Assembly (NCBI GenBank): GCA_005888755.1
Contig: VBBQ01000036.1
Location: forward strand, 1 to 46,485
Length of the DNA: 46,485 nt
Source of the DNA: Candidatus Bathyarchaeota archaeon
GTDB lineage: Archaea; Thermoproteota; Bathyarchaeia; 40CM-2-53-6
Reading direction: 5' to 3'
Below the pieces are notes generated by a model, which saw only the letters and a list, made by a program, of their open reading frames with translations, searched no databases and had not been told where the DNA came from. Position numbers and translations under genes: made by a program. Positions 15,522-38,915 of this stretch are shown here, piece by piece (position 1 is the stretch's first letter; each line of letters starts with the position of its first letter).

Positions 15522-16667
15522 TTGTCATCCAACGATAGAGTCATCGTTCTCGGTTGTGGAATGGGAGGTCTGGCAGTCTCAAGTCTCTTGGCCGAGCGCG
15601 CTCCCAAGGCATCGATTACGATCGTCGAGCAGAAGAAAATCTTCGAGTTCCCGCCTTCCTTCCCGTTGCTGGCAATGGGTCGGCGCGAACCCGGAAAAGT
15701 CCGTCGCCCCCTCTACGTCTCAAAGAAGCGGAAAGTCCGCCTGGTGAACGACCGGGTCGGTTCTATTGAGACTTCATCGAGGACGGTTAAGACGGGATCG
15801 GAAGAGTTGCGTTATGATCATCTAGTCATTTCGATGGGAGTTGAATACTCGCCTGGTGACGTTCCAGGTCTAGAGAAATACGCTCACCAATTCTACGATT
15901 TTGAATCGGCAATGAAGCTGCGTGATGCTCTCGAGAATCTCGATGGTGGAAAGTTGGCTATTGGGATTTCGCGATTGCCTATCAAGTGTCCTGTTGCGCC
16001 GTATGGTTTGGCTTTGCTCTTGCAGGATCACTTTGCGAGAGCGAAAAAGAAGGTTTCGATGGAGTTTTTCACCCCGGAGCCTCATCCCGCTCCGGCTGCC
16101 GGTCCTGTAATCGGTAAACAGGTGGAGAGGCTCTTGGCAGCCAGGGGGATCGCGTTTCGCCCGAAGGTCAAGCTTTCCAAGGTGGAAAAAGACAAGGTGG
16201 TCTTTGAGGGAAAGACAGAGCTCCCGTACGATCTGTTGATCGTTGTTCCGCCTCACAAGTGTCCAAGCGCCGTTGTTGAGGCTGGATTGACCGATTCGTC
16301 GGGCTGGGTCCCTGTGAGCCCGCAAACTCTAGCCACCAGGTTCGAACGGGTCTACGCGATCGGAGATGTAACCGCCATCGAGACGCCGCATGCTCATGTT
16401 CCGTTTCTGCCGAAGTCAGGATCATTCGCGCTCGGTCAAGCGGAAGTTGTCGCGAACAACATTGCAATGTCGATCACAGGGAAAGGGGAGCGAAAGATCT
16501 GGGACGGAACTGGATCCTGTTTTCTCGAAGTTAACAGGGGAGAAAGCGCTATGCTTAGGGGAGAATTTCTCTCGAACCCTCCACGGTTGGAGTTTCACCC
16601 GCCTCGCCGAAAATGGCAGGTTGAGAAGACAAAGTTGGAAGAGTACTGGATGACTCACCGATTCTAA
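15522..16667 (+). CDS. FAD-dependent oxidoreductase of the sulfide:quinone reductase (SQR)-like family
   Basis: 381-residue two-dinucleotide-binding-domain flavoprotein. N-terminal VIVLGCGMGG (7-16) binds FAD; YDHLVISMGVEYSPG is the second conserved strand; RVYAIGDVTAIETP (277-290) is the FAD-flavin motif. Cys156 in IKCPVAP and Cys333 near the C-terminus sit where SQR-type enzymes keep their redox cysteines, and Cys247 (HKCPSA) is additional. The family moves electrons from sulfide or NADH to membrane quinone. The cysteines favour SQR-like chemistry over NDH-2, but substrate remains inferred. TTG at 15522 is the only start before the Rossmann motif. Confidence 0.85.
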   Translation: MSSNDRVIVLGCGMGGLAVSSLLAERAPKASITIVEQKKIFEFPPSFPLLAMGRREPGKVRRPLYVSKKRKVRLVNDRVGSIETSSRTVKTGSEELRYDHLVISMGVEYSPGDVPGLEKYAHQFYDFESAMKLRDALENLDGGKLAIGISRLPIKCPVAPYGLALLLQDHFARAKKKVSMEFFTPEPHPAPAAGPVIGKQVERLLAARGIAFRPKVKLSKVEKDKVVFEGKTELPYDLLIVVPPHKCPSAVVEAGLTDSSGWVPVSPQTLATRFERVYAIGDVTAIETPHAHVPFLPKSGSFALGQAEVVANNIAMSITGKGERKIWDGTGSCFLEVNRGESAMLRGEFLSNPPRLEFHPPRRKWQVEKTKLEEYWMTHRF

Positions 16668-17009: not shown

Positions 17010-17771
17010 TTAGCCGGACAGAGTGTCTGCGGGTTCGGTTTCAGATGAGCTCTTGACGGCCTTCCGCCATTCTCTCGCCTTGTCCCCAAGTCTGTGGAGC
17101 AACCTGTCCTCTTCGCGGGTGAGAAGTTCGCCCTTGCTTATCTTACTCCTTAGCGAGGATATTGTCATCTCGTCCTCCTCTACTGGGTATCCTGACTCTT
17201 CGATAGAATGGAGAAGAGACCGTGCTTGATTCTCTCCCGCTCCGACCTCCCATCTCTCTGCTTTTCCGACTTCAACTGTCTTACTGCTTGACTCGGTTGA
17301 GATTGGTTTGAAGGCGAGAATGTCGGTGATAGCGCCCCCACGTTCTGATGGGTTCTTGAGAGATGGGGATACTTTCATCCCGATTGATAGTCGATCAGAA
17401 TCGCCTCTCTCGAGCAGGTGCACTATTCCTCCCTTGACGCCTTCAAATTTCACAAGGCCAACGGTAATCGGTAATTCCGTGTCGGCACCGGCTCTGTCTC
17501 GGTTGACCGAAGTAAAGCTGTAGACATATCCAGGCTTGTCGATTGGGAACTGGTCTTTCATCTCGATGAAGCAGCTGGGGCAGTACATTCTAGCTGGAAT
17601 GTAGGTGCTCTTGCACTTGGAACACTTCGAGACCAGGAAACGGCCGTTGTCCCGGAGCTCGCGTCGAAATTCCTCCCCTGCAACCCCTGCCGTATAGTGG
17701 AACTCAAGCGGTATGCTGTCCGTCCAGTGCCGAGCCTGGCTTTGTTGTGTGAGCTTCTCTAAGATCGGCAT
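17010..17771 (-). CDS. DUF35 OB-fold/zinc-ribbon protein, long form
   Basis: 253 residues. DUF35 proteins are small partners of thiolase-fold enzymes and can form part of the acyl-CoA site. Here the rubredoxin-like ribbon has CSKC and CPSC (about 50-70), followed by an OB-fold with VYSFTSVNRDRAG and VGLVKFEGVKGG. The last 90 residues are an extra charged helical extension (WEVGAGENQARS..., then ISKGELLTREEDRLLHRLG) not normally present. Last gene of a four-gene minus-strand set with a second DUF35 and two thiolase-like genes, three bases after the previous stop. Its 3' end overlaps the short plus-strand frame at 16826-17056, which I consider spurious. Confidence 0.88.
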   Translation of the reverse strand: MPILEKLTQQSQARHWTDSIPLEFHYTAGVAGEEFRRELRDNGRFLVSKCSKCKSTYIPARMYCPSCFIEMKDQFPIDKPGYVYSFTSVNRDRAGADTELPITVGLVKFEGVKGGIVHLLERGDSDRLSIGMKVSPSLKNPSERGGAITDILAFKPISTESSSKTVEVGKAERWEVGAGENQARSLLHSIEESGYPVEEDEMTISSLRSKISKGELLTREEDRLLHRLGDKAREWRKAVKSSSETEPADTLSG

Positions 17772-17774
17772 GTT

Positions 17775-18296
17775 CTACTCTTCTCCTATTGGTCTGAAGT
17801 ACCGGATGTCTGTGATGGCGCCCTGCCTCTCGCTCGACGATTTCCATACTGCCTTGACCTTCATGCCTACTTTGATCTCTGAAGGCTCAACTTCTCCCAG
17901 ATTGTGGAGTATTCCCATTCCAGGAGTCGCACCGTCTAGATCAACGACCGCAACTAGTATAGGTGTTTTCAATCGTCTAGCGTCTGTGCCCACGTGTGAA
18001 ATCGAGTAAGTGTTGATAGTCCCCGTATCTTTGATCTGGACCCATTCGTCTGTGGGCCTGAAGCATTGCTCGCAGTACATTCTCGGCGGTACAAGTATCC
18101 GTTCGCAATTCATACACTTTCTCGCGATTATCCTTCCCTCTTTCAGCTCGGCCAGGAAGCGGCTGATCGCGACGCCTGCAGCCCAGCTATACTTCGGCTC
18201 AAACTTGTAGACAACATCCAGATACTTTCCCTCCTTTACATCCTCCGGAGTAATCTCGTGGCCAGGATAGCTTGTGATTTTCTGAGACAATATCAT
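17775..18296 (-). CDS. DUF35 OB-fold/zinc-ribbon protein
   Basis: 173 residues, canonical DUF35 length. Zinc ribbon CMNC/CEQC (about 61-76) precedes an OB-fold with INTYSISHVGTD and ILVAVVDLDGA, and it ends in AITDIRYFRPIGEE. The N-terminal 45 residues include an amphipathic stretch typical for contacts with a thiolase partner. It lies nine bases downstream of the second thiolase-like gene and just upstream of the longer DUF35, so the four are almost certainly one operon. By family knowledge it should bind acyl-CoA or bridge subunits rather than catalyse alone. Confidence 0.9.
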   Translation of the reverse strand: MILSQKITSYPGHEITPEDVKEGKYLDVVYKFEPKYSWAAGVAISRFLAELKEGRIIARKCMNCERILVPPRMYCEQCFRPTDEWVQIKDTGTINTYSISHVGTDARRLKTPILVAVVDLDGATPGMGILHNLGEVEPSEIKVGMKVKAVWKSSSERQGAITDIRYFRPIGEE

Positions 18297-18305
18297 CTTC
18301 CTCCT

Positions 18306-19466
18306 TTAGGACCTCATTACCGCAACAGTTCCGACCTGCATCAAATCTCCCCAGGCCTGAGCCAGACCCGTCCGAGCATCCTTCTTCACTTGTCTTTTCC
18401 CTGCTTCCCCTCGAAGTTGCCAGAAGACTTCGCAGATCTTCATCATCCCAGCGGCCGCGATTGGATTACCAACGCCCAGTAGTCCGCCTGAGGGGCAGAC
18501 GGGCAGATCACCGTCTCGCTGGGTTACACCGTCGACGGCCATCTTTGCAGCTTCTCCCTTGCCCGCCAGCTGAAGCCCTTCCATGTGATGAAGCTCCTTG
18601 TAGTCGAATGGATCGTAGACTTCCGCGATATCGATCTCCTTCCTCGGCTTCTTGATCCCGGCCATCTTGTAGGCCATCCAGGCAGCTTTCTCAACATACT
18701 CCGGATAGGCCAAGTCACGGTTCGTCCAGTGTGTGCTATCAAGAGTCCAGCCTACACCGTCGAGCCAGACAGGCTGGTCGGTTAGTTTCTTCGCAACTTT
18801 CTCAGTAGCGAGAACCACCGCAGCAGCTCCATCGCTAGGAGGACTCACGTCCAATCGTTTTACGGGCCAACAGATTGGCTCGGAGTTCATGACGTCGTCG
18901 ACAGTTATCTTAGCGCCTAGTTGTGCACAAGGATGATCAACAGCGTTTCCCTTGTTCTTCACCGCAACGCTCGCGATCTCTTCCTCCTTGATCCCGTACT
19001 TGTGCATGTAGCGTCGCATCTCCAACGAGAAAATCCACAGCAGAGTTGTGCCAAGAGGTCTCTCGAGGATCTGGTCGAATATGCTCCAGAAGGCGTACTG
19101 AGGATGAGGATGCAACGGTGACATTTTCTCTTCGGCAACGCAGAGGCAAGTATCGTACATTCCAGAGGCAACGTTCCAGAATCCGCCGATAGGCGTGAAG
19201 ACTCCTGTTCCTCCTCCGACGTAGACGCGCTGGTTGGGCTTGCCTATCCCTCCCATCCCGTCTAGGAGGTATTCTCCTTTCATGTGCATGCCGTCGAAAG
19301 CGTCAGGTGCTGAGCCTGATACCACTGACTGGATGTCTTTCAGTTCAAGCCCTGCCGAGTCGAGGGCCATTCTCGTCGCCTCAAATGAGAGTTCCTTCGG
19401 ACTTTCAAGCATTCGTCGTCTGAATAGTGTCATACCTGCCCCAACGATTGCTACACGATTTTTCAT
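18306..19466 (-). CDS. Thiolase-fold protein lacking catalytic residues (second copy)
   Basis: 386 residues with the overall SCP2/archaeal thiolase layout: N-terminal VAIVGAGMTLF, helical SFEATRMALDSAG, a domain boundary at DGAAAVVLATEKVA, and C-terminal PSGGLLGVGNP. The nucleophile position (normally C in CASG, about 85) is Gly within VGGGTGV; the conserved GHP His is Asn (about 334); and the usual HD in the central motif is YD in AEVYDPFDYKEL. It therefore cannot be a normal thiolase. Related cysteine-free thiolase-fold proteins with DUF35 partners act as acyl-CoA retro-aldolases (Ltp2 type). Middle gene of a four-gene operon, 13 bases after the first thiolase-like gene. Confidence 0.9.
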   Translation of the reverse strand: MKNRVAIVGAGMTLFRRRMLESPKELSFEATRMALDSAGLELKDIQSVVSGSAPDAFDGMHMKGEYLLDGMGGIGKPNQRVYVGGGTGVFTPIGGFWNVASGMYDTCLCVAEEKMSPLHPHPQYAFWSIFDQILERPLGTTLLWIFSLEMRRYMHKYGIKEEEIASVAVKNKGNAVDHPCAQLGAKITVDDVMNSEPICWPVKRLDVSPPSDGAAAVVLATEKVAKKLTDQPVWLDGVGWTLDSTHWTNRDLAYPEYVEKAAWMAYKMAGIKKPRKEIDIAEVYDPFDYKELHHMEGLQLAGKGEAAKMAVDGVTQRDGDLPVCPSGGLLGVGNPIAAAGMMKICEVFWQLRGEAGKRQVKKDARTGLAQAWGDLMQVGTVAVMRS

Positions 19467-19479
19467 TAGCAGACTCCTC

Positions 19480-20631
19480 CTAGTTTCCCAATACCGCTAC
19501 TGCCCCGGTCGCAGTTGGAATTCCTCTCCAGCTCTGAACGACAGCCTTCTTCGCTCTCTGAATCTGTAGACGTCCGGCTTGTCCTCGGAGTTGTAGAACA
19601 GCTTCGAGCACTCTGTGAAGACCGGTCGCCTCTAGGAGATGACCAACTCCCAACGAGCCGCCTGACGCGTTCACAGGCAACCGCCCGTCTCTATCAAAAG
19701 CGCCAGACTCGACCATCTTGCCAGCCTTGCCTTTAGCGGCGAGCTTGAGAGCCTCGAGGCTCTGAAGCTCCTTGTAGGAATAGGTATCATCCACCTCAGC
19801 AAGGTCAAAGTAAGTCGCTGGGTTCCGCACGCCTGCCATCTTGTAAGCGCGAGCCGCGGACTGTTCCGCGTACGCGGCTCTCGCCATGTCTCGATCCTCT
19901 AACCATGGCGTGTCAGAACTCCAGCCGATACCGTTTATCCAGACAGTGTGGTTGCCGAGTTTCTTGGCCTTCTGGGCCGAGGCGAGTACGAAGACCATGC
20001 TTCCGTCGATGGTCTTGCTCGATTCCAGTTCGGTGAGCGGTGAGGCTGCAATTTTCGAGTTAAGCACCGCCTTCTTGTCCAAGTCTGCCCCGTGGACCCC
20101 GCGCGGGTTCAGGAGCGCGTTCTTCTTGTTCTTGACCGCAACTTGTGCACAGTATTCTCTCTTTGTCGCAGTCTCTTTCAAGTAGCGGGCCATTTCGAGC
20201 CCTGCTACGAATCTCGGGTCCGCGTTAACGTGATGATCGTAGATAGGGTCGAGGGCGAAGCTTGAGATCTCGTCAGGGTTTACAACGTCCGAGATCTTGC
20301 TGTGAGACTCTACGACCGCGACGTCAGCAATTCCGGACATGATGTGCATGCACGCCGTTGCGAGACCGACAATTCCGTCTGAAGATATCGTGCATAATGG
20401 TTTGAGAACCGCTCCAAGCTGGTCGGGCATGTACTCGTCAGTAATGCTGATTCCCTCCCAGAAATCCTCGGTACAACAGATGAAACTCTGAACATCTTTT
20501 CGAGGGTCCACTCCAGCGTCTTCGTAGGCGCGAGTTGCTGCCTCAAACATTAGTTCCCGGGTTGAGAGACTGGGGGTCATCGAGTCGAAGCCTGAATATC
20601 CGACGCCCACTATTCCGATTCGTAGAGGCAA
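19480..20631 (-). CDS. Thiolase-fold protein lacking nucleophilic cysteine (first copy)
   Basis: 383 residues, paralogous to the following gene. N-terminal IGIVGVGYSGFDS, helix LMFEAATRAYEDAG, the ISSDG segment where thiolases have CASG (Ser83 at the Cys position by spacing to IMSG), and DGSMVFVLASAQKA at the domain boundary. The C-terminal His is kept in GGSLGVGHLLEATG (His331), but the central motif reads AEVDDTYSYKEL. Thus one catalytic residue is retained here and none in the partner, suggesting a heteromer of non-equivalent chains. TTG start at 20631 with MPLRIG matching the family N-terminus. First gene of the cluster; minus-strand TCTTATAGTAAAC at 20664-20676 is a plausible TATA element. 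Confidence 0.9.
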   Translation of the reverse strand: MPLRIGIVGVGYSGFDSMTPSLSTRELMFEAATRAYEDAGVDPRKDVQSFICCTEDFWEGISITDEYMPDQLGAVLKPLCTISSDGIVGLATACMHIMSGIADVAVVESHSKISDVVNPDEISSFALDPIYDHHVNADPRFVAGLEMARYLKETATKREYCAQVAVKNKKNALLNPRGVHGADLDKKAVLNSKIAASPLTELESSKTIDGSMVFVLASAQKAKKLGNHTVWINGIGWSSDTPWLEDRDMARAAYAEQSAARAYKMAGVRNPATYFDLAEVDDTYSYKELQSLEALKLAAKGKAGKMVESGAFDRDGRLPVNASGGSLGVGHLLEATGLHRVLEAVLQLRGQAGRLQIQRAKKAVVQSWRGIPTATGAVAVLGN

Positions 20632-20691: not shown

Positions 20692-22320
20692 TCATTGGGA
20701 CGGTGGAGGCGGGGCCGATGATGAACCGGGCAATTGCTGTTGAGGCGGAGGTTGCGGAGACCCAGCTCTAGGAGTTCCACATGTCATACAGAAGAATTCT
20801 GCAGGACCAAGGGGCTTTCCACAAGCACCACAGTAAGCCGCGGGGATTACAATTGGGTAGGGTGAAGTAATTGGCATGGCGGCCCGCCGAGTTTGTTCTC
20901 TCCTCAACGCCACGACTACAACTGCAATGGCGACTGCGATTGGCGGCATGATTACTGTGAGAAGTTCTGCGATGCTGAAGACAGGGATTGAGATGTTGGC
21001 TGGTCCTAGCACATTCGTCCTGAAGACGGATTGTACTCCGTACGGTACTATAACACGCAGGCTGTAATTCCCTGGAGGTAATTGCGCGAGAGTTGCATTT
21101 CCTTCAGAGTCCGTTCTTACGGTCTGATTGGTCGAGTCAGGAAGGAATGTGAGAACAGTTGCTCCGCCAACGGGCAGAGAGTAGAATCGACCTACTACGC
21201 GAACAGGAATTGAGAAAACATTTCCCTGGATTGTCTGGCTTGATGCCGAACTAGAAACCAAGGTATTGTTTACAACGTTGACACCGTGCCAGTACGCATA
21301 GTTAATTTTGAAAGTGCTGGATTGAGTAATGTTCTGGGACAAGTAGCTGGTGTAATATAGCACGTTGCCGTTGCCCTGGTCCTGCAGCGAAATCCAATCA
21401 GGTGTGAAAGGATTTCCACTGTGATCGATGAAATTGAAATTGAGCTGAGTGGGGGACGGAACTGACGTTGGCCAGAGTGTGGTCGCGGAGGCGGGCTGGC
21501 GAATGTTGCTTCCCGCGAGGAAGTCATCTCTGTGTCCTTCAACTTCCCAGACACCGTATAGGTTGGGCAAGCCTGTCTGACTACTATAACCGTAGCAACA
21601 ATGGCTTATCCCTGTTGGCATTTGGTGCCACGGACCAGCCTGACGTATTTCTAGATCTTTGAACTCGGCAGGGCCAATTATGTCCTTGTTGTCAGTAGCC
21701 TGGGCTACTTCAGCGATTCCCGCTGGAGCTTGGCTCCCTGAACTAGTCGCGCCGGCTCCAAGATAGCTCTTGTCCCCAGGCGGAGGTGATTTTCCAAGAA
21801 GATTGCCATCCATGTAGAAAGACCAAACGCCATTGCCGGTGTGGACCATTGAGTATGTGTGCCATGAACCGATAGGCCCGGCTGACCCTTCAGGTCCGAT
21901 TATTGGTGGACAGTCACAGTTTGGGGTATAGAAGGTTTCGAAGAACCAGGCGCAACAGTAGGTTTGGCCAGTGGTGCTGAGTCCGTTGAGATATCCTACC
22001 TGGACGAAGCCACCAGTGGAGAGTAGAGTCCCTACCCAGTATGAATGAGCGTCATTCCGAACCTGGTCATACACCGTTCTGATCGTAATGTTTGCGCCAT
22101 CAACATTGTAACTGCTACTGTCGCCAATGGCTCCGATCTGGAACCAGTAATAGCCCCCAAGAGCGTAGGTAGTTTGGAGTGGTCCTTGTCTAATCGGCTG
22201 CGGGATGAGGCCCAAGTTGGAACTAATTGCAAGCGAGCCATGCCCGAGAGCGATGAAAGACTGGAGACCCGCCACGACGCTGAGAATAACTAGAGCAATC
22301 CTAAGGGTCCGTGTCATCAT
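20692..22320 (-). CDS. Secreted, membrane-anchored protein with cytoplasmic zinc-ribbon tail
   Basis: 542 residues. N-terminal signal segment (about 5-27, IALVILSVVAGLQSFIALG), then a large extracellular region rich in Ser, Thr, Gly, Asn and Tyr. This contains a concanavalin/LamG-like section with GSWHTYSMVHTGNGVWSFYMDG and two unusual CC pairs. A carboxypeptidase-regulatory-like beta domain follows, with NATLAQLPPGNYSLRV (about 405-430). One transmembrane helix (about 455-475, TVIMPPIAVAIAVVVVAL) ends in RREQTRR. The intracellular tail has a zinc ribbon CGAC/CMTC and a Pro/Gln-rich end. Function unknown; the layout suggests surface carbohydrate or protein binding. Start is one of two tandem ATGs. 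Confidence 0.8.
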   Translation of the reverse strand: MMTRTLRIALVILSVVAGLQSFIALGHGSLAISSNLGLIPQPIRQGPLQTTYALGGYYWFQIGAIGDSSSYNVDGANITIRTVYDQVRNDAHSYWVGTLLSTGGFVQVGYLNGLSTTGQTYCCAWFFETFYTPNCDCPPIIGPEGSAGPIGSWHTYSMVHTGNGVWSFYMDGNLLGKSPPPGDKSYLGAGATSSGSQAPAGIAEVAQATDNKDIIGPAEFKDLEIRQAGPWHQMPTGISHCCYGYSSQTGLPNLYGVWEVEGHRDDFLAGSNIRQPASATTLWPTSVPSPTQLNFNFIDHSGNPFTPDWISLQDQGNGNVLYYTSYLSQNITQSSTFKINYAYWHGVNVVNNTLVSSSASSQTIQGNVFSIPVRVVGRFYSLPVGGATVLTFLPDSTNQTVRTDSEGNATLAQLPPGNYSLRVIVPYGVQSVFRTNVLGPANISIPVFSIAELLTVIMPPIAVAIAVVVVALRREQTRRAAMPITSPYPIVIPAAYCGACGKPLGPAEFFCMTCGTPRAGSPQPPPQQQLPGSSSAPPPPSQ

Positions 22321-22463: not shown

Positions 22464-23627
22464 ATGGGTTTCTTCGGGAACGAACAGAAAGAACTCATCC
22501 AGATGATATACGGATCCAGCTCCGAGGACCATATTCTCCTCCTAGACTCCCTCGGAGATTTCATCGAGAAAGAGATCGCACCCACCGCCCGAGAGATCGA
22601 CGTAAACGCTCAGTTTCCACGCGAGAACATTACCAAGATGTTCGAACAAGGCTTCACAAGCATAGGTTTTCCCAAGGAATACGGCGGCCTTGAACTCCCC
22701 TGGCCAGTCTATGTCGCGGCCATGGAGATGGTCGGCAAGGCATGTGCCAGCACTGCTCTCTCACTCGCAATTCACGGAACCTGTTGCGAAGGAGTACGTC
22801 TGTTCAGTAATCCAGAGCAGAAGAAACAGTTTCTTCCCGGAATGATCAGCGGAAAATCCTTTGCCGCGTTCTCGCTAACCGAACCGGGTGCGGGATCGGA
22901 CGCACGAAACATGCAAACCCAGGCCCGGTTGGAAGGGAACGAATGGATAGTTAACGGAACGAAAATGTTCACCACAAACGGAGGCTACTGCGATCTATAC
23001 TTTCTGTTCGCCAAGACCCCGAAGGGCCCATCCGCGTTTCTGGTCGATTCGAAAAAAGCAAAATCGAGCAAAGACATTGAAAAACTCGGGGTGAGAGGAT
23101 CAGTCACTTCAGAGGTAGTGTTCGAAAACGCAAAGGTCCCTAAGGAAAACCTGGTAGGAATAGAAGGAGAAGGCTTCGAGTACGCTAAGAGAATGCTCTG
23201 GGGCGGACGCGTAACGATTGGAGCCCTCACAACCGGAATCGCCCAAGCCGCCTTCGAAAAAGCAGTGAGGTACAGCAAGGAAAGGACGGCGTTTGGAAAG
23301 ACACTGTCCGAGTTCGAAATGACCCAGGCCAAACTCGCCGACATGTTAACGATGATTAACGCGTCACGAATGATGGTTTACCGCGCAGCGCACCTGAAGA
23401 GTCAGGGAAAACCATTCGAGTCAGAAGCAGCTCAAGGCAAACTTCTGGCGACGGAAAACGCGCTCAAAGTGTGTGATGAGGCAATTCAGATCTACGGAGG
23501 ATACGGGTACGCGGACGAATTTGATGTTCATCGTCACTGGCGGGACGCGAGACTAATGACGGTGGGAGAGGGCACCTCGGAGATCATGAGATTAATTATC
23601 TCGAAGAACATCCTCCATCCATCATAG
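22464..23627 (+). CDS. Acyl-CoA dehydrogenase
   Basis: FAD-dependent alpha,beta-desaturation of an acyl-CoA thioester, with electrons passed to ETF. 387 residues in the standard three-domain layout: helical N-terminal domain, beta domain with FSLTEPGAGSDA (about 137-148) and WIVNGTKMFTTNGG, C-terminal helical domain with RTAFGKTLSEFEMTQAKLADM, and QIYGGYGYADEF. VGEGTSEIMR carries the Glu that normally removes the alpha proton. It lies alone between divergent and convergent neighbours; together with the nearby thiolase-fold/DUF35 operon it suggests acyl-CoA catabolism. Chain length preference cannot be read. Confidence 0.95.
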   Translation: MGFFGNEQKELIQMIYGSSSEDHILLLDSLGDFIEKEIAPTAREIDVNAQFPRENITKMFEQGFTSIGFPKEYGGLELPWPVYVAAMEMVGKACASTALSLAIHGTCCEGVRLFSNPEQKKQFLPGMISGKSFAAFSLTEPGAGSDARNMQTQARLEGNEWIVNGTKMFTTNGGYCDLYFLFAKTPKGPSAFLVDSKKAKSSKDIEKLGVRGSVTSEVVFENAKVPKENLVGIEGEGFEYAKRMLWGGRVTIGALTTGIAQAAFEKAVRYSKERTAFGKTLSEFEMTQAKLADMLTMINASRMMVYRAAHLKSQGKPFESEAAQGKLLATENALKVCDEAIQIYGGYGYADEFDVHRHWRDARLMTVGEGTSEIMRLIISKNILHPS

Positions 23628-34566: not shown

Positions 34567-36147
34567 TCACGCGTTGATTCTAACTCGGTATTCTCCGAAA
34601 GCCTCTCTCAGAGCGTCGCTGATCTCGCCCACGGTGCAATTGGAACGGACTGCGCCTAGGATATCGTCTACAAGATTCTGTTGATGTTTTGCAGACCGGG
34701 AGAGGCGTCCGAGAGCATTCTTGACCTGGGTCGTGTTTCTCGATGCTTTCATCTTCTTCAACTGCCTGACTTGAGCCTTCTCAAGTTTGGGATCGATGCG
34801 CTGGATCTTCGGCTCGCTACTTCCTTCGGTAAACTTGTTGACTCCCACGATGATCGTTCGGCCTTCGTCGACGGATTTCTGGAACCTGTAGGCGCTTTCC
34901 TGTATCTCGCGATGGACAAATCCGGACTCTATCGCTTTTCGCGCTCCGCCTAAATCCTCCACTCTCTCTAAGAGACCTGTTGCTTTGGCCTCAAGGTTTC
35001 TTGTCAAGTATTCCAGATAGTAGCTTCCGGCCAACGGATCAGCCGTCTTTGTCACCCCAGATTCGTTCGCGATGATTTGCTGGGTCCTCAGTGCAATTCG
35101 CACAGACTCTTCAGTAGGTAGAGACAGTGCCTCGTCCCTAGAATTTGTATGGAGAGACTGTGTTCCACCCAGAACTCCTGCAAGGGCTTGGATTGCGACT
35201 CGAACGATGTTGTTGTTAGGCTGCTGCGCAGTCAAAGTCTCGCCACTCGTCTGGGTGTGAAATCGTAGCTTACACGATTCAGGGTCTCGGGCTTTGAAAC
35301 GGCCCTTCATTATGCGGGCCCAGATTCTACGCGCAGCTCTGAATTTCGCGATCTCCTCCAAGAAATCATTCCTGCAGGCAAAGAAGAACGAGAGTTGCGG
35401 CGCAAACTGGTCGATCCTGAGCCCTCGTTCAAGAGCCGCCTTAACGTATTCGATTGCGTTTGCAAAACAGAATCCCAATTCCTGAACCGCGTCTGCGCCT
35501 GATTCGCGAATGTGGTAACCGCTGATACTGATGGGGTGCCAGTGGGGCATTTTGTAGGCGCAGTATTCTATGAGATCGACGGAGAGTCTCAGCGATGCTT
35601 CTGGAGGGTAGATGTACGTGTTTCTCGCGATGTATTCTTTCAGAATATCATTCTGGGTCGTTCCCCTCAACTTGTTCTGCGGGACGCCTTGATTCATTCC
35701 AACGGCGATGTACAACGAGAACAGGATAGGTGCTGTCGCATTGATGGTCATGCTCGTGCTCACTCTTCCGAGGTCGATGCCCTCGAAGAGACGTCTCATG
35801 TCATGGACGCTGCTGATCGCAACTCCTACCCTGCCAACTTCCCCTGCTGCCCTAGGATGGTCTGAATCGAGGCCGAGCTGTGTTGGAAGGTCAAACGCTG
35901 TGCTGAGCCCGGTCTCGCCGTGAGATATCAGATACTTGAAGCGCCGGTTAGTTTCTCGAGCCGAACCAAACCCGGTGTACTGGCGCATGGTCCACAGCCG
36001 GTCCCGATACATTCCATCGTAGATGCCCCGTGTATACGGGAATTGGCCCGGTCTTCCCAGTGACTTTGACCATTTCGATGGAACATCTTTTTTCTCGCAG
36101 AACTTCTTGACTGGTATCCCAGAGTCCGTTGTTACAGGCTCAGTCAA
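34567..36147 (-). CDS. Methylmalonyl-CoA mutase large subunit (catalytic domain only)
   Basis: B12-dependent carbon-skeleton mutase barrel, 526 residues, converting methylmalonyl-CoA to succinyl-CoA. GQFPYTRGIYDGMYRDRLWTMRQYTGF is the start of the TIM barrel. The residue matching Tyr89 of methylmalonyl-CoA mutase is Tyr57 (RQY), and the residue matching Arg207 is Arg175 (IARNTYIYPP), so this copy has the methylmalonyl-type substrate pair. [25 protein letters not shown] is the conserved barrel end. No cobalamin-binding domain is attached; archaea carry it as a separate small subunit, not present here. Its ATG overlaps the MeaB stop by four bases (ATGA), so it is coupled downstream of MeaB. Confidence 0.93.
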   Translation of the reverse strand: MTEPVTTDSGIPVKKFCEKKDVPSKWSKSLGRPGQFPYTRGIYDGMYRDRLWTMRQYTGFGSARETNRRFKYLISHGETGLSTAFDLPTQLGLDSDHPRAAGEVGRVGVAISSVHDMRRLFEGIDLGRVSTSMTINATAPILFSLYIAVGMNQGVPQNKLRGTTQNDILKEYIARNTYIYPPEASLRLSVDLIEYCAYKMPHWHPISISGYHIRESGADAVQELGFCFANAIEYVKAALERGLRIDQFAPQLSFFFACRNDFLEEIAKFRAARRIWARIMKGRFKARDPESCKLRFHTQTSGETLTAQQPNNNIVRVAIQALAGVLGGTQSLHTNSRDEALSLPTEESVRIALRTQQIIANESGVTKTADPLAGSYYLEYLTRNLEAKATGLLERVEDLGGARKAIESGFVHREIQESAYRFQKSVDEGRTIIVGVNKFTEGSSEPKIQRIDPKLEKAQVRQLKKMKASRNTTQVKNALGRLSRSAKHQQNLVDDILGAVRSNCTVGEISDALREAFGEYRVRINA

Positions 36148-37094
36148 GCTCTCGCCCCCATTTTTGCAATAATCGCCACAAGTCTCGACGCAGCTGTCTC
36201 TGGGTCGAGTTCAAGTTTGACAACTCTTCCGACCAGCGCGTCGAGTTCTTTCTGATCCCTGAGACGCTCGACTGTTTGATCATGGAAATCTGAGAATGCA
36301 GCATCCAACAGTTCAGACTCGATTCTCCTCCTCAATTTTTTCTCTCTGAGTCCCCTCGCCTCCAAGTGTTTCCAGAATTTTTCGAGCGAATCTACGACCG
36401 CAGGTATGCCTGTTCCCTTGATTGCGACGGTCTTCAGAACTGGCGGCCTCCATCCATCTCTCTCTTGCAAACCGCTTGCGATGTTGTAGATTGTCTTGGC
36501 CGGGTTGACCAAGTCTGCCTTGTTGATGACGAACAAGTCACCGATCTCTGCGAAACCCGCTTTGAACGCCTGGACCTCGTCCCCCAGCTGGGGCATCAAT
36601 ACAACTACCGTGGCATCGACTGTGGTGGCGACTTGGACCTCTGTCTGGCCTGCTCCTACTGTCTCGACGATAATGAGGTCCATGCCGGCCGCGTCCAAAA
36701 CTCGTATAGTGTTTCTCGCAGCGCGAGCGAGTCCCCCCAGGTCGCCTCTGGAGGCCATGCTTCTAATGTAGACTTTCCTCTCTAGACTGTGGTCCATCAT
36801 CCGGACTCGGTCCCCCAGCAACGCGCCGCCTGTGAACGCGCTGGACGGGTCGATGGCTAGAACTCCAACGCTACGTTCTCTCTCGCGATACTCTCCAACT
36901 ATCTTGTCGACGAGAGTGCTCTTGCCGGTCCCGGTTGGACCAGTAACCCCGATGGTGAATGCCTTGCCCGTATGCGGATACAATTCTTGAATGAGCTTTC
37001 GGCTCGGCTCTCCGCCAGCCTCGACTATCGAGATCGCCTTGGCAACAGCGCGATGCTCACCCTTGAGCACTTGAGAAGATAGCTCCCGAGCCAA
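36144..37094 (-). CDS. meaB: MeaB/ArgK-type GTPase chaperone of B12 mutases
   Basis: G3E-family P-loop GTPase that protects and reloads cobalamin-dependent mutases. 316 residues: Walker A GPTGTGKS (around 51-58), [18 protein letters not shown], the switch strand [33 protein letters not shown] for guanine recognition, and a C-terminal helical dimerisation arm. TTG start at 37094 (MARELSSQ). Minus-strand CTTGAAATACGC at 37120-37131 is the likely TATA element. Directly followed by, and overlapping, the methylmalonyl-CoA mutase gene. Confidence 0.94.
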
Positions 37095-37196
37095 GTGAAA
37101 TTCTCAGTTCTGCTCTCGCCTCTAGAGCGTATTTCAAGATTCGGCGATGAAAGGCGTCAGGATAATGGAAAAATAGGAACCTCCAGGCATCTTCTA

Positions 37197-38915
37197 TTGT
37201 TTCGTGATCGTGTTTTGGCAAAGGGTTACTGGAAGAAAGTTCTAGACGAGATCAAACAGGTCAAGCAAGAGAGGCTCCGGTGGGAGACCAAGACGCTCAA
37301 ACCGTGGACCCGCACTAGCCCTGAACAGAAGGCGGAATTCAGAAACCTGTCCAATATTTCTGTGAAGAGAGTATACACTCCAGAAGACGTGTCACACCTA
37401 AACCAGTCCGAGCAGATCGGCCTTCCAGGCGAGTATCCCTATGTCCGTGGCGTATATCCGACGATGTACCGCGGGCGACCGTGGACTATGCGCATGTTCT
37501 CCGGCTTCGGAACCCCTGAAGACACCAACAAACGTCTACACTACTTGCTAGAGCACGGGGAAACAGGTCTAAGCATTGCATTCGACATGCCCACGCTCTA
37601 CGGGTATGATCCTGACAGTCCCCGAGCTGAGGGGGAAGTGGGACGTTGCGGTGTGTCAGTGGGCTCGTTGAAGGACATGGAGATCATTTTCGAGGGCATC
37701 CCGCTGGAGAAGGTCAGTACTAGTATGACGATCAATGCCCCAGCATCGGTTCTGACCGCGATGTATGTCGGCGTGGCTGAGAGGCATGGGGTGAAACCAA
37801 AAGAGCTGCGCGGAACGGTTCAAGCGGACATTCTGAAAGAGTACATCGCCCAGAAAGAATGGGCTTTCCCACCTGAGGCGCATCTTCGGATCATTCGGGA
37901 CATGATGGTGTATTGTACGAAGGAAATGCCGCAGTGGAACTACATCAGCATTAGTGGCTACCACATACGAGAAGCAGGGTCCAGTGCTGTCCAGGAGCTG
38001 GCATTCACACTGGCAGACGGGTTCGCATATGTCGATCTTGGAATTGAAGCAGGGTTGAAGGTCGAGGATTTCGCGCCCCGCCTCTCGTTCTTTTTCAACT
38101 GCGGGATGGACTTTTTCGAAGAAGTCGCCAAGTTTCGCGCTGCCCGGCGAATCTGGGCTCGGGTGTTGAAAGACAAGTACAAGGTCAAAGACCCTAGATC
38201 GTTGTTGTTGAGGACACACGCTCAGAACTCAGGTGCATCTCTCACGTGGCAGCAGCCTCTCAACAATATCGTGCGAACGACGATCGAAGCATTAGCGACG
38301 GTTCTCGGTGGAACCCAGTCGCTTCATACCAACTCTTACGATGAGGCGTGGGCGTTGCCGTCCGAGGCGGCGGCCACTGTCGCGCTGAGGACTCAGCAGA
38401 TCCTAGCAGAAGAGACAGGCGTCACCGACACCATCGACCCCCTAGCTGGATCATACTATCTCGAATGGCTTACTGATGAGATGGAAGAACGTGCGTTCCA
38501 GTACTTCGACAAGATAGAACGGGCAGGTGGGCTGCTCAACGCGATAAAGACCGGATTCATACAAAGGGAGATCGCTGAGAACTCCTACCGATATCAGCAA
38601 GAACTGGAGAAGGGAGAACGGGTCATCGTCGGCGTCAACAAGTACCAGTTAGAAGAGAAGAAACCTATTGACACTTTGAAGATCAACGAGGAGGCACAGC
38701 GACGACAGGTTGCACGGATGAACAGCGTGCGGGAGACCCGGGACAACAAGAAGGTCGAGCAAGCGCTCAATGATCTGCGGAAGACGTTCAAGGATGAGAA
38801 GGCGAACTCCATGTATCCTATGATCAAGGCGGTCAGAGCTTACGCAACGCTTGGAGAGATCATGGATGTGGGACGGAAGATTTTCGGCGAATACAAGGAG
38901 CCACCGATTCTCTGA
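37197..38915 (+). CDS. Isobutyryl-CoA-mutase-like large subunit
   Basis: Second B12 mutase barrel, about 572 residues from the TTG at 37197. The frame is open back to a GTG at 37095, but that start would abut MeaB with no room for a promoter, and homologous sequence begins near [29 protein letters not shown] (37164-37174) could be the TATA box; the TTG at 37215 is an alternative. At the two specificity positions it has Phe (RMFSGF) and Gln ([10 protein letters not shown]), the pair of isobutyryl-CoA mutase rather than Tyr/Arg; the Ala before FDMPT excludes the 2-hydroxyisobutyryl type. It is divergent from MeaB and lacks a B12 domain. Confidence 0.88.

Follow-up and report, generated by a model that had tools for sequence, protein, structure and literature searches.

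Two aldolases that combine a thiolase fold with a DUF35 partner have been described: Ltp2-ChsH2, which acts in steroid side-chain breakdown (PDB 6ok1, Thermomonospora curvata), and the bile-acid enzyme Sal-Shy of Comamonas testosteroni (Sal is CtSal; PDB 9myr). Both have glycine in place of the nucleophilic cysteine of thiolases, and in both the tyrosine of a YDxF motif is essential (PMC12329534). Here we describe a four-gene set from a Candidatus Bathyarchaeota archaeon, at positions 17010-20631 of the 46,485-nucleotide contig VBBQ01000036.1 (assembly GCA_005888755.1; the whole stretch is called the window), which encodes two thiolase-fold proteins, alpha and beta, and two DUF35 proteins, DUF35a and DUF35b (Table 1). 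Beta shares the glycine and the tyrosine of the two aldolases but not their general acids. We consider the chances evenly balanced that the four genes specify one hetero-oligomeric enzyme that makes or breaks a carbon-carbon bond in acyl-coenzyme A (acyl-CoA) substrates without an acyl-cysteine, with beta as the active and alpha as a structural subunit.

Alpha and beta were placed in one alignment with proteins of solved structure and with L093 and L094, two further thiolases encoded by the window's genome. The alignment is supported by its recovery of the published numbering, Tyr294/His296/Tyr344 in Ltp2 and Tyr302/Cys304/Gln352 in CtSal, the Ltp2 active-site residues being taken from the same report (PMC12329534). 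In the nucleophile column, which holds Cys in thiolases and Gly in Ltp2 and CtSal, beta has Gly85 and alpha has Ser83. At the thiolase HD histidine, Ltp2, CtSal and beta (Tyr284) all have Tyr and alpha has Asp281. The HDC cysteine column shows Cys or Ser in the same-genome thiolases; Ltp2 has His there, CtSal has Cys, beta has Pro286 and alpha Thr283. At the GHP histidine, Ltp2 has Tyr, CtSal Gln, beta Asn334 and alpha His331. The two same-genome Cys/His thiolases retain the nucleophilic cysteine, the HD histidine and the GHP histidine at these columns; neither alpha nor beta has the nucleophilic cysteine of the C-A-S/T-G site, and the histidine pair reads Tyr284/Asn334 in beta and Asp281/His331 in alpha. 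An earlier reading of the letters with no database search (the sequence-only reading) had assigned Ser83, DD and GH to alpha, and Gly85, YD and GN to beta, all of which are right by structure-anchored alignment, and no conserved cysteine falls at the nucleophile site of either chain.

Across some 117 orthologues from archaea and bacteria, beta Gly85, Tyr284, Asp285, Pro286, Phe287, Tyr289, Glu291 and Asn334 are practically invariant, with 97-100% retention of Gly85, Tyr284, Asp285, Pro286, Phe287, Tyr289 and Asn334. The sole exceptions are two true thiolases drawn into the alignment and, for Asp285, one divergent pair of loci (L080 and L081). Gly85, Tyr284, Pro286 and Asn334 are so nearly invariant among beta orthologues that the replaced residues are neither chance nor sequencing error. 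No cysteine column in the beta orthologues rises above 59%, and alpha has no conserved cysteine column either.

The catalytic sites of alpha vary: site 83 may be Ser, Ala, Pro, Thr, Cys, Gly or Glu, and site 281 Asp, Glu, Ser, Cys, Asn or His. The GH histidine, noted earlier as kept in alpha, is present in the window protein but is no conserved feature, since site 331 is His in 35 of about 112 alphas and otherwise Tyr (20), Val (18), Asn (17), Trp (9) or Asp (6). In eight alpha proteins site 83 is Cys, and these lack both the HD and the GH histidine. Polar positions at 97% identity or more number 46 in beta and 8 in alpha. Over 85 loci, mean pairwise identity reaches 68% in beta, 48% in both alpha and DUF35a, and 38% in DUF35b. 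From this contrast in conservation, beta looks like an enzyme and alpha looks like a pseudo-subunit with a degenerate active site. The proposal of two non-equivalent active subunits thus gives way to one conserved, catalytic-looking chain and a degenerate partner.

Pfam places Thiolase_N and Thiolase_C_1 in alpha and beta, and zf-ChsH2 with OB_ChsH2_C in both DUF35 proteins. In NCBIfam, beta belongs to PRK06065 (676.8 bits against a curated cut-off of 455); alpha scores 490.5 bits to PRK06066, under the curated cut-off of 516, but is a PRK06066-type orthologue by synteny and by its place in the tree. PRK06065 is the beta family, PRK06066 the alpha family and SSO2064 (PDB 3irb) represents the DUF35b family; the first two are titled only 'thiolase domain-containing protein', with no function given. 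AlphaFold models of alpha and beta (predicted local distance difference test scores of 89.7 and 86.1) are full thiolase folds, nearest to the archaeal thiolase 6esq (VIA Z of 53.6 and 53.4 to 6esq_A), and Ltp2, Sal and PhlC also match (Z 44.9-50; 45.5 for beta to 6ok1_C, about 50 for alpha to 5m3k_C). In a posterior mean site frequency tree, midpoint-rooted for drawing only, alpha and beta form separate groups (each 100/100) that lie together (91/84), apart from thiolases and from the Ltp2/Sal/4u4e group. As beta falls outside the Ltp2/Sal clade, its Gly and Tyr need not be read as inherited from either enzyme.

The paired version of the module at the divergent loci (L080 5660-8462, L081 5941-8745) branches apart in the same tree. 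Its beta-like chain keeps Tyr-Asn-Pro-Phe and the Asn and has a Cys one residue ahead of the nucleophile site (ATCGSTGG), and its alpha-like chain has Glu at that site.

Likeness to Ltp2 comprises the thiolase fold, the glycine, the catalytic Tyr294 of YDHF, which corresponds to beta Tyr284, and the DUF35 partner. The Ltp2 pathway also includes an acyl-CoA dehydrogenase, such as lies near the module. Beta differs from Ltp2 in having Pro286 for His296 and Asn334 for the general acid Tyr344, and the module has an additional thiolase-fold chain, which is degenerate, one more DUF35 and no linked MaoC hydratase. Sal shares with beta the glycine and the tyrosine (Tyr302), carries an amide, Gln352, where beta has Asn334, and is likewise partnered by a DUF35 protein, Shy. 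However, its essential Cys304, part of a Tyr302/Cys304 dyad in the motif YDCY, is Pro286 in beta; it has a single kind of thiolase-fold chain where there are two here, and in Shy the DUF35 part forms a fusion with a hydratase, whereas both DUF35 genes of the module stand alone, with no fusion to MaoC. Beta belongs to a clade separate from both aldolases. The archaeal thiolase 6esq is the closest in fold, is archaeal and has a DUF35 scaffold, but its Cys/His/Cys/His set is intact, its partner is 3-hydroxy-3-methylglutaryl-CoA synthase and it has one DUF35. The acyltransferases PhlABC and MucABC (PDB 5m3k and 9vbo) and the benzoylsuccinyl-CoA thiolase BbsAB (7pxp) are likewise thiolase-superfamily complexes of several chains. 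A DUF35-type subunit occurs in PhlABC and MucABC, and one partner in PhlABC is inactive, but PhlABC and BbsAB each contain a catalytically active Cys chain, of which this module has none.

Both DUF35 proteins of the window have zinc-ribbon and OB-fold domains above cut-off, and their four zinc cysteines each are intact, as had been noted from the letters. Those of DUF35a are retained in nearly every family member, while the fourth of DUF35b is absent in Archaeoglobus and many crenarchaeal members (e.g. L063, L136, L156), and this second zinc ribbon seems dispensable. DUF35b carries an extra C-terminal tail in the window's genus. SSO2064, in 2010 the first DUF35 structure (PMC2954200), shares 80% identity over 117 residues with the DUF35b of the same cluster at locus L057 and is, by this match, the fourth member of the four-gene set. 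Mirror-tree correlations are 0.76 for alpha with DUF35a, 0.65 for alpha with beta and 0.63 for beta with DUF35a, values that assign neither DUF35 protein to one particular chain. Apparent alpha-beta and DUF35-DUF35 fusions at L164 and L176 were merely longer open frames.

The four genes form a tight operon on the minus strand, with intergenic gaps of 13, 9 and 3 bases, and the order alpha-beta-DUF35a-DUF35b recurs across relatives. All four lie close together on one strand at 97 of 120 loci, the others including contig ends and members that the search models missed; the co-occurrence in relatives on which the sequence-only reading was to stand or fall was found. Among 300 genomes of the phylum, alpha is present in 49 and beta in 61, and where a genome has both, the two adjoin with few exceptions such as L076. 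Sulfolobus acidocaldarius has alpha and beta, and the module occurs in the Sulfolobales. At least 571 relatives emerged when GTDB genomes were scanned, some of them in chromosome-level assemblies, among them Archaeoglobus, Thermoproteus, metagenome-assembled genomes (MAGs) labelled Loki- and Thorarchaeota, Actinobacteria, Deltaproteobacteria, Krumholzibacteria and Anaerolineales; beta identity outside Bathyarchaeota is mostly 65-70%. The arrangement, put forward as novel by the sequence-only reading, is thus not peculiar to the window genome, a 2.0-Mb archaeal assembly related most closely, among named genomes, to soil Candidatus Bathyarchaeota MAGs, but a widespread module for which database families (PRK06065 and PRK06066) were already defined.

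Table 1. The four-gene set, the codons at its proposed catalytic sites and a neighbouring gene, in window coordinates.
Feature	Position	Strand	Remarks
Alpha, thiolase fold, PRK06066-type	19480..20631	-	383 amino acids, TTG start; site residues Ser83/Asp281/Thr283/His331
Beta, thiolase fold, PRK06065-type	18306..19466	-	386 amino acids; Gly85/Tyr284/Pro286/Asn334; proposed catalytic subunit
DUF35a, zf-ChsH2 + OB_ChsH2_C	17775..18296	-	173 amino acids; zinc cysteines 61, 64, 75, 78
DUF35b, SSO2064 (PDB 3irb) orthologue	17010..17771	-	253 amino acids; zinc cysteines 50, 53, 64, 67
Beta Gly85 codon	19212..19214	-	Column of the thiolase nucleophile (Cys)
Beta Tyr284 codon (Y of YDPF)	18615..18617	-	Column of thiolase HD-His, Ltp2 Tyr294, CtSal Tyr302
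Beta Pro286 codon	18609..18611	-	Column of thiolase HDC-Cys, Ltp2 His296, CtSal Cys304
Beta Asn334 codon (GNP)	18465..18467	-	Column of thiolase GHP-His, Ltp2 Tyr344, CtSal Gln352
Acyl-CoA dehydrogenase, divergent neighbour of the module	22464..23627	+	Context; not proven part of the complex

Genes were counted within the fetched flanks of 103 loci. Acyl-CoA dehydrogenase is the commonest neighbour in other genomes (40), placed directly before alpha in Sulfolobales and directly after DUF35b in Archaeoglobus; acyl-CoA synthetase (20), canonical thiolase (9), B12 mutase (6), enoyl-CoA hydratase (5) and hydroxyacyl-CoA dehydrogenase (2) follow, and no aromatic-biosynthesis genes are among the neighbours classified. 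Acyl-CoA dehydrogenase is present in every one of the 61 beta-positive genomes and in 131 of the 300 genomes altogether (Fisher p 4e-27, phylogeny ignored). NCBIfam gives the neighbouring dehydrogenases no specific substrate, the best model, acryloyl-CoA reductase, always being under cut-off. A route from acyl-CoA dehydrogenase to aldolase needs no hydroxyacyl-CoA dehydrogenase, and a neighbourhood that has the first of these dehydrogenases but not the second is consistent with retro-aldol cleavage like that in the breakdown of steroid side chains. Elsewhere the window genome has three crotonase genes, hydroxyacyl-CoA dehydrogenases and Cys-thiolases, so that the module is not needed as a beta-oxidation thiolase; a search of this genome for MaoC (PF01575) at E 0.001 gave no match.

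At locus L166 the order is etfB-etfA-acyl-CoA dehydrogenase-adenosyltransferase-mutase-B12 subunit-alpha-beta-DUF35-DUF35. The mutases beside the module have the Phe/Gln signature of isobutyryl- or 2-hydroxyisobutyryl-type enzymes, and not the Tyr/Arg that marks methylmalonyl-CoA mutase. In the window a MeaB GTPase lies between two large subunits of B12 mutases arranged back to back (34567-36147 and 36144-37094, minus strand; 37095-38915, plus strand), one with the Tyr/Arg and the other with the Phe/Gln signature; in other lineages the four-gene module has mutases of a similar kind at its flanks. In a Lokiarchaeota MAG (L167, 9357-14341) the genes after the module encode an aldehyde ferredoxin oxidoreductase, an acyl-CoA synthetase and another protein of the aldehyde ferredoxin oxidoreductase type, a linkage that an aldehyde-releasing enzyme might need. 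Upstream of alpha by 60 bases and on the same strand, a gene at 20692-22320 encodes a 542-residue protein with a zinc-ribbon-like CxxC pair at its C terminus and a carboxypeptidase-regulatory-like domain that scores under the Pfam cut-off; it is present in 5 loci only and lies outside the conserved module. Another window gene, at 15522-16667 (plus strand), encodes an oxidoreductase of the flavin disulphide type; NCBIfam matches it best to a model for type III sulfide:quinone reductase, at a score well under cut-off.

How might beta work? Acyl-enzyme chemistry appears very unlikely, because there is neither a conserved cysteine nor a histidine dyad. Non-covalent carbon-carbon chemistry on acyl-CoA with Tyr284 as acid/base is the most economical reading, by analogy with the same tyrosine in Ltp2 and Sal. 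We propose a model where beta carries the active site of the complex and Tyr284 acts on the beta-hydroxyl of a 3-hydroxyacyl-CoA, while Gly85 would leave room and a backbone NH at the position of the thiolase nucleophile and Asn334, at the GHP-His position, would help to polarise or hold the thioester enolate. Retro-aldol cleavage would then release acetyl- or propionyl-CoA and an aldehyde or ketone, as in Ltp2 and Sal. Alpha would be a pseudo-thiolase completing the dimer or tetramer, and the two DUF35 proteins zinc-ribbon/OB scaffold subunits lining the entrance for CoA and substrate. The enoyl-CoA would come from the neighbouring acyl-CoA dehydrogenase and be turned into the hydroxyacyl-CoA by a hydratase from elsewhere in the genome (the crotonase genes). 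Complex formation, reaction type, direction, substrate and the roles of single residues we infer; directly seen were which residues occur and how well they are conserved, the asymmetry of the subunits, the linkage of the four genes, their neighbours and the fold. Where the sequence-only reading spoke of an aldolase-like acyl-CoA lyase and not a thiolase, the denial of a Cys-dependent thiolase stands, with the cysteine gone and the histidine replaced, and the glycine and YDxF tyrosine agree with Ltp2 and Sal; aldolase activity itself is proposed by analogy, the acids Tyr344 of Ltp2 and Cys304 of Sal being absent.

Several points weigh against this model. Judged from the alignment, the acid of Ltp2 is Asn and that of Sal is Pro in beta, which thus lacks the proton donor of either enzyme; His61, Tyr289, His293 and His294 are candidates for the donor nearest to Tyr284. 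No hydratase is fused or linked to the module, unlike in Shy and the mycobacterial igr operon. Function cannot be transferred by descent from Ltp2 or Sal where beta groups separately, and part of the association of acyl-CoA dehydrogenase with beta is shared ancestry. A literature search by locus and family names returned no functional study of any member. The missing general acid, the lack of a linked hydratase and the separate clade are why we put retro-aldol cleavage at about an even chance.

Other non-covalent acyl-CoA chemistry in the beta pocket, whether decarboxylative or Claisen/aldol-type condensation in a biosynthetic direction, decarboxylation of 3-oxo- or malonyl-type thioesters, or hydration, is unlikely but deserves serious consideration. 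The fold family is chemically versatile, the general acid of the known aldolases is missing, no hydratase is linked and B12 mutases of the Phe/Gln type flank the module in some lineages; the linkage to acyl-CoA dehydrogenase and the nesting in genomes that contain it nevertheless point to breakdown. TbSLP, with Tyr in YDCF, was reported to decarboxylate malonyl-CoA weakly, whereas CtSal, with the same Gly/Tyr as beta, had no malonyl-CoA decarboxylase activity (PMC12329534). Somewhat less probable is that the complex has no catalysis of its own and binds CoA to serve acyl-CoA dehydrogenase or acyl-CoA synthetase as a scaffold or as a platform for substrate channelling. Alpha is plainly degenerate, DUF35 subunits serve as scaffolds in other complexes (PMC6996347) and none of the acid/base pairs agrees completely with that of a known enzyme, but site residues of beta kept at 97-100% bespeak active-site-like selection, and a pure scaffold would be expected to drift like alpha.

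We give very little credence to an ordinary acetyl-CoA acetyltransferase or thiolase, as annotated, that uses an alternative cysteine or one from the partner subunit. Database names and the Sulfolobus literature put thiolase-superfamily genes at the last step of beta-oxidation, the fold is nearest to archaeal thiolases and there are the eight alphas with Cys83; these, however, have neither histidine, no cysteine column is conserved in alpha or beta, both catalytic histidines are replaced too and intact thiolases lie elsewhere in the genome, so that the residues already contradict it. Equally improbable is a multicomponent C-acyltransferase like PhlABC or MucABC, in which one thiolase-fold partner is inactive and DUF35 forms a bridge. 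The part list, two thiolase-superfamily chains plus DUF35, is the same (PMC2954200), and alpha resembles 5m3k_C in fold, but PhlABC has one active thiolase-superfamily chain where no conserved cysteine occurs at the site in either chain here, and the module has two DUF35 proteins and no aromatic-biosynthesis genes among its classified neighbours.

Returning to retro-aldol cleavage, it is tempting to speculate, improbable though we hold it in this full form, that the module represents a widespread family of heteromeric, cysteine-free carbon-carbon lyases that replace blocked last steps of beta-oxidation. Dehydrogenation by acyl-CoA dehydrogenase and hydration would be followed by retro-aldol cleavage of tertiary or branched 3-hydroxyacyl-CoAs, for example those from the 3-methyl-branched isoprenoid chains found in archaeal lipids, giving an acyl-CoA together with a ketone or aldehyde, with Gly/Tyr/Pro/Asn as a third residue set, independent of Ltp2 and Sal. 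Branched or tertiary 3-hydroxyacyl-CoAs are offered as substrates by way of suggestion only.

The module is real, widespread and misannotated, and uncharacterised as far as the searched literature shows. It is a new variant among DUF35-partnered thiolase-superfamily enzymes, outside the tested aldolase families. Hundreds of archaeal and bacterial genomes name it acetyl-CoA acetyltransferase or thiolase, and pathway reconstructions may therefore count a thiolase that is absent. If the aldolase reading is true, retro-aldol carbon-carbon cleavage of acyl-CoAs would be much broader than steroid breakdown and would use an active site unlike that of Ltp2 or Sal, together with a dedicated pseudo-subunit, and SSO2064 would gain its missing partners.

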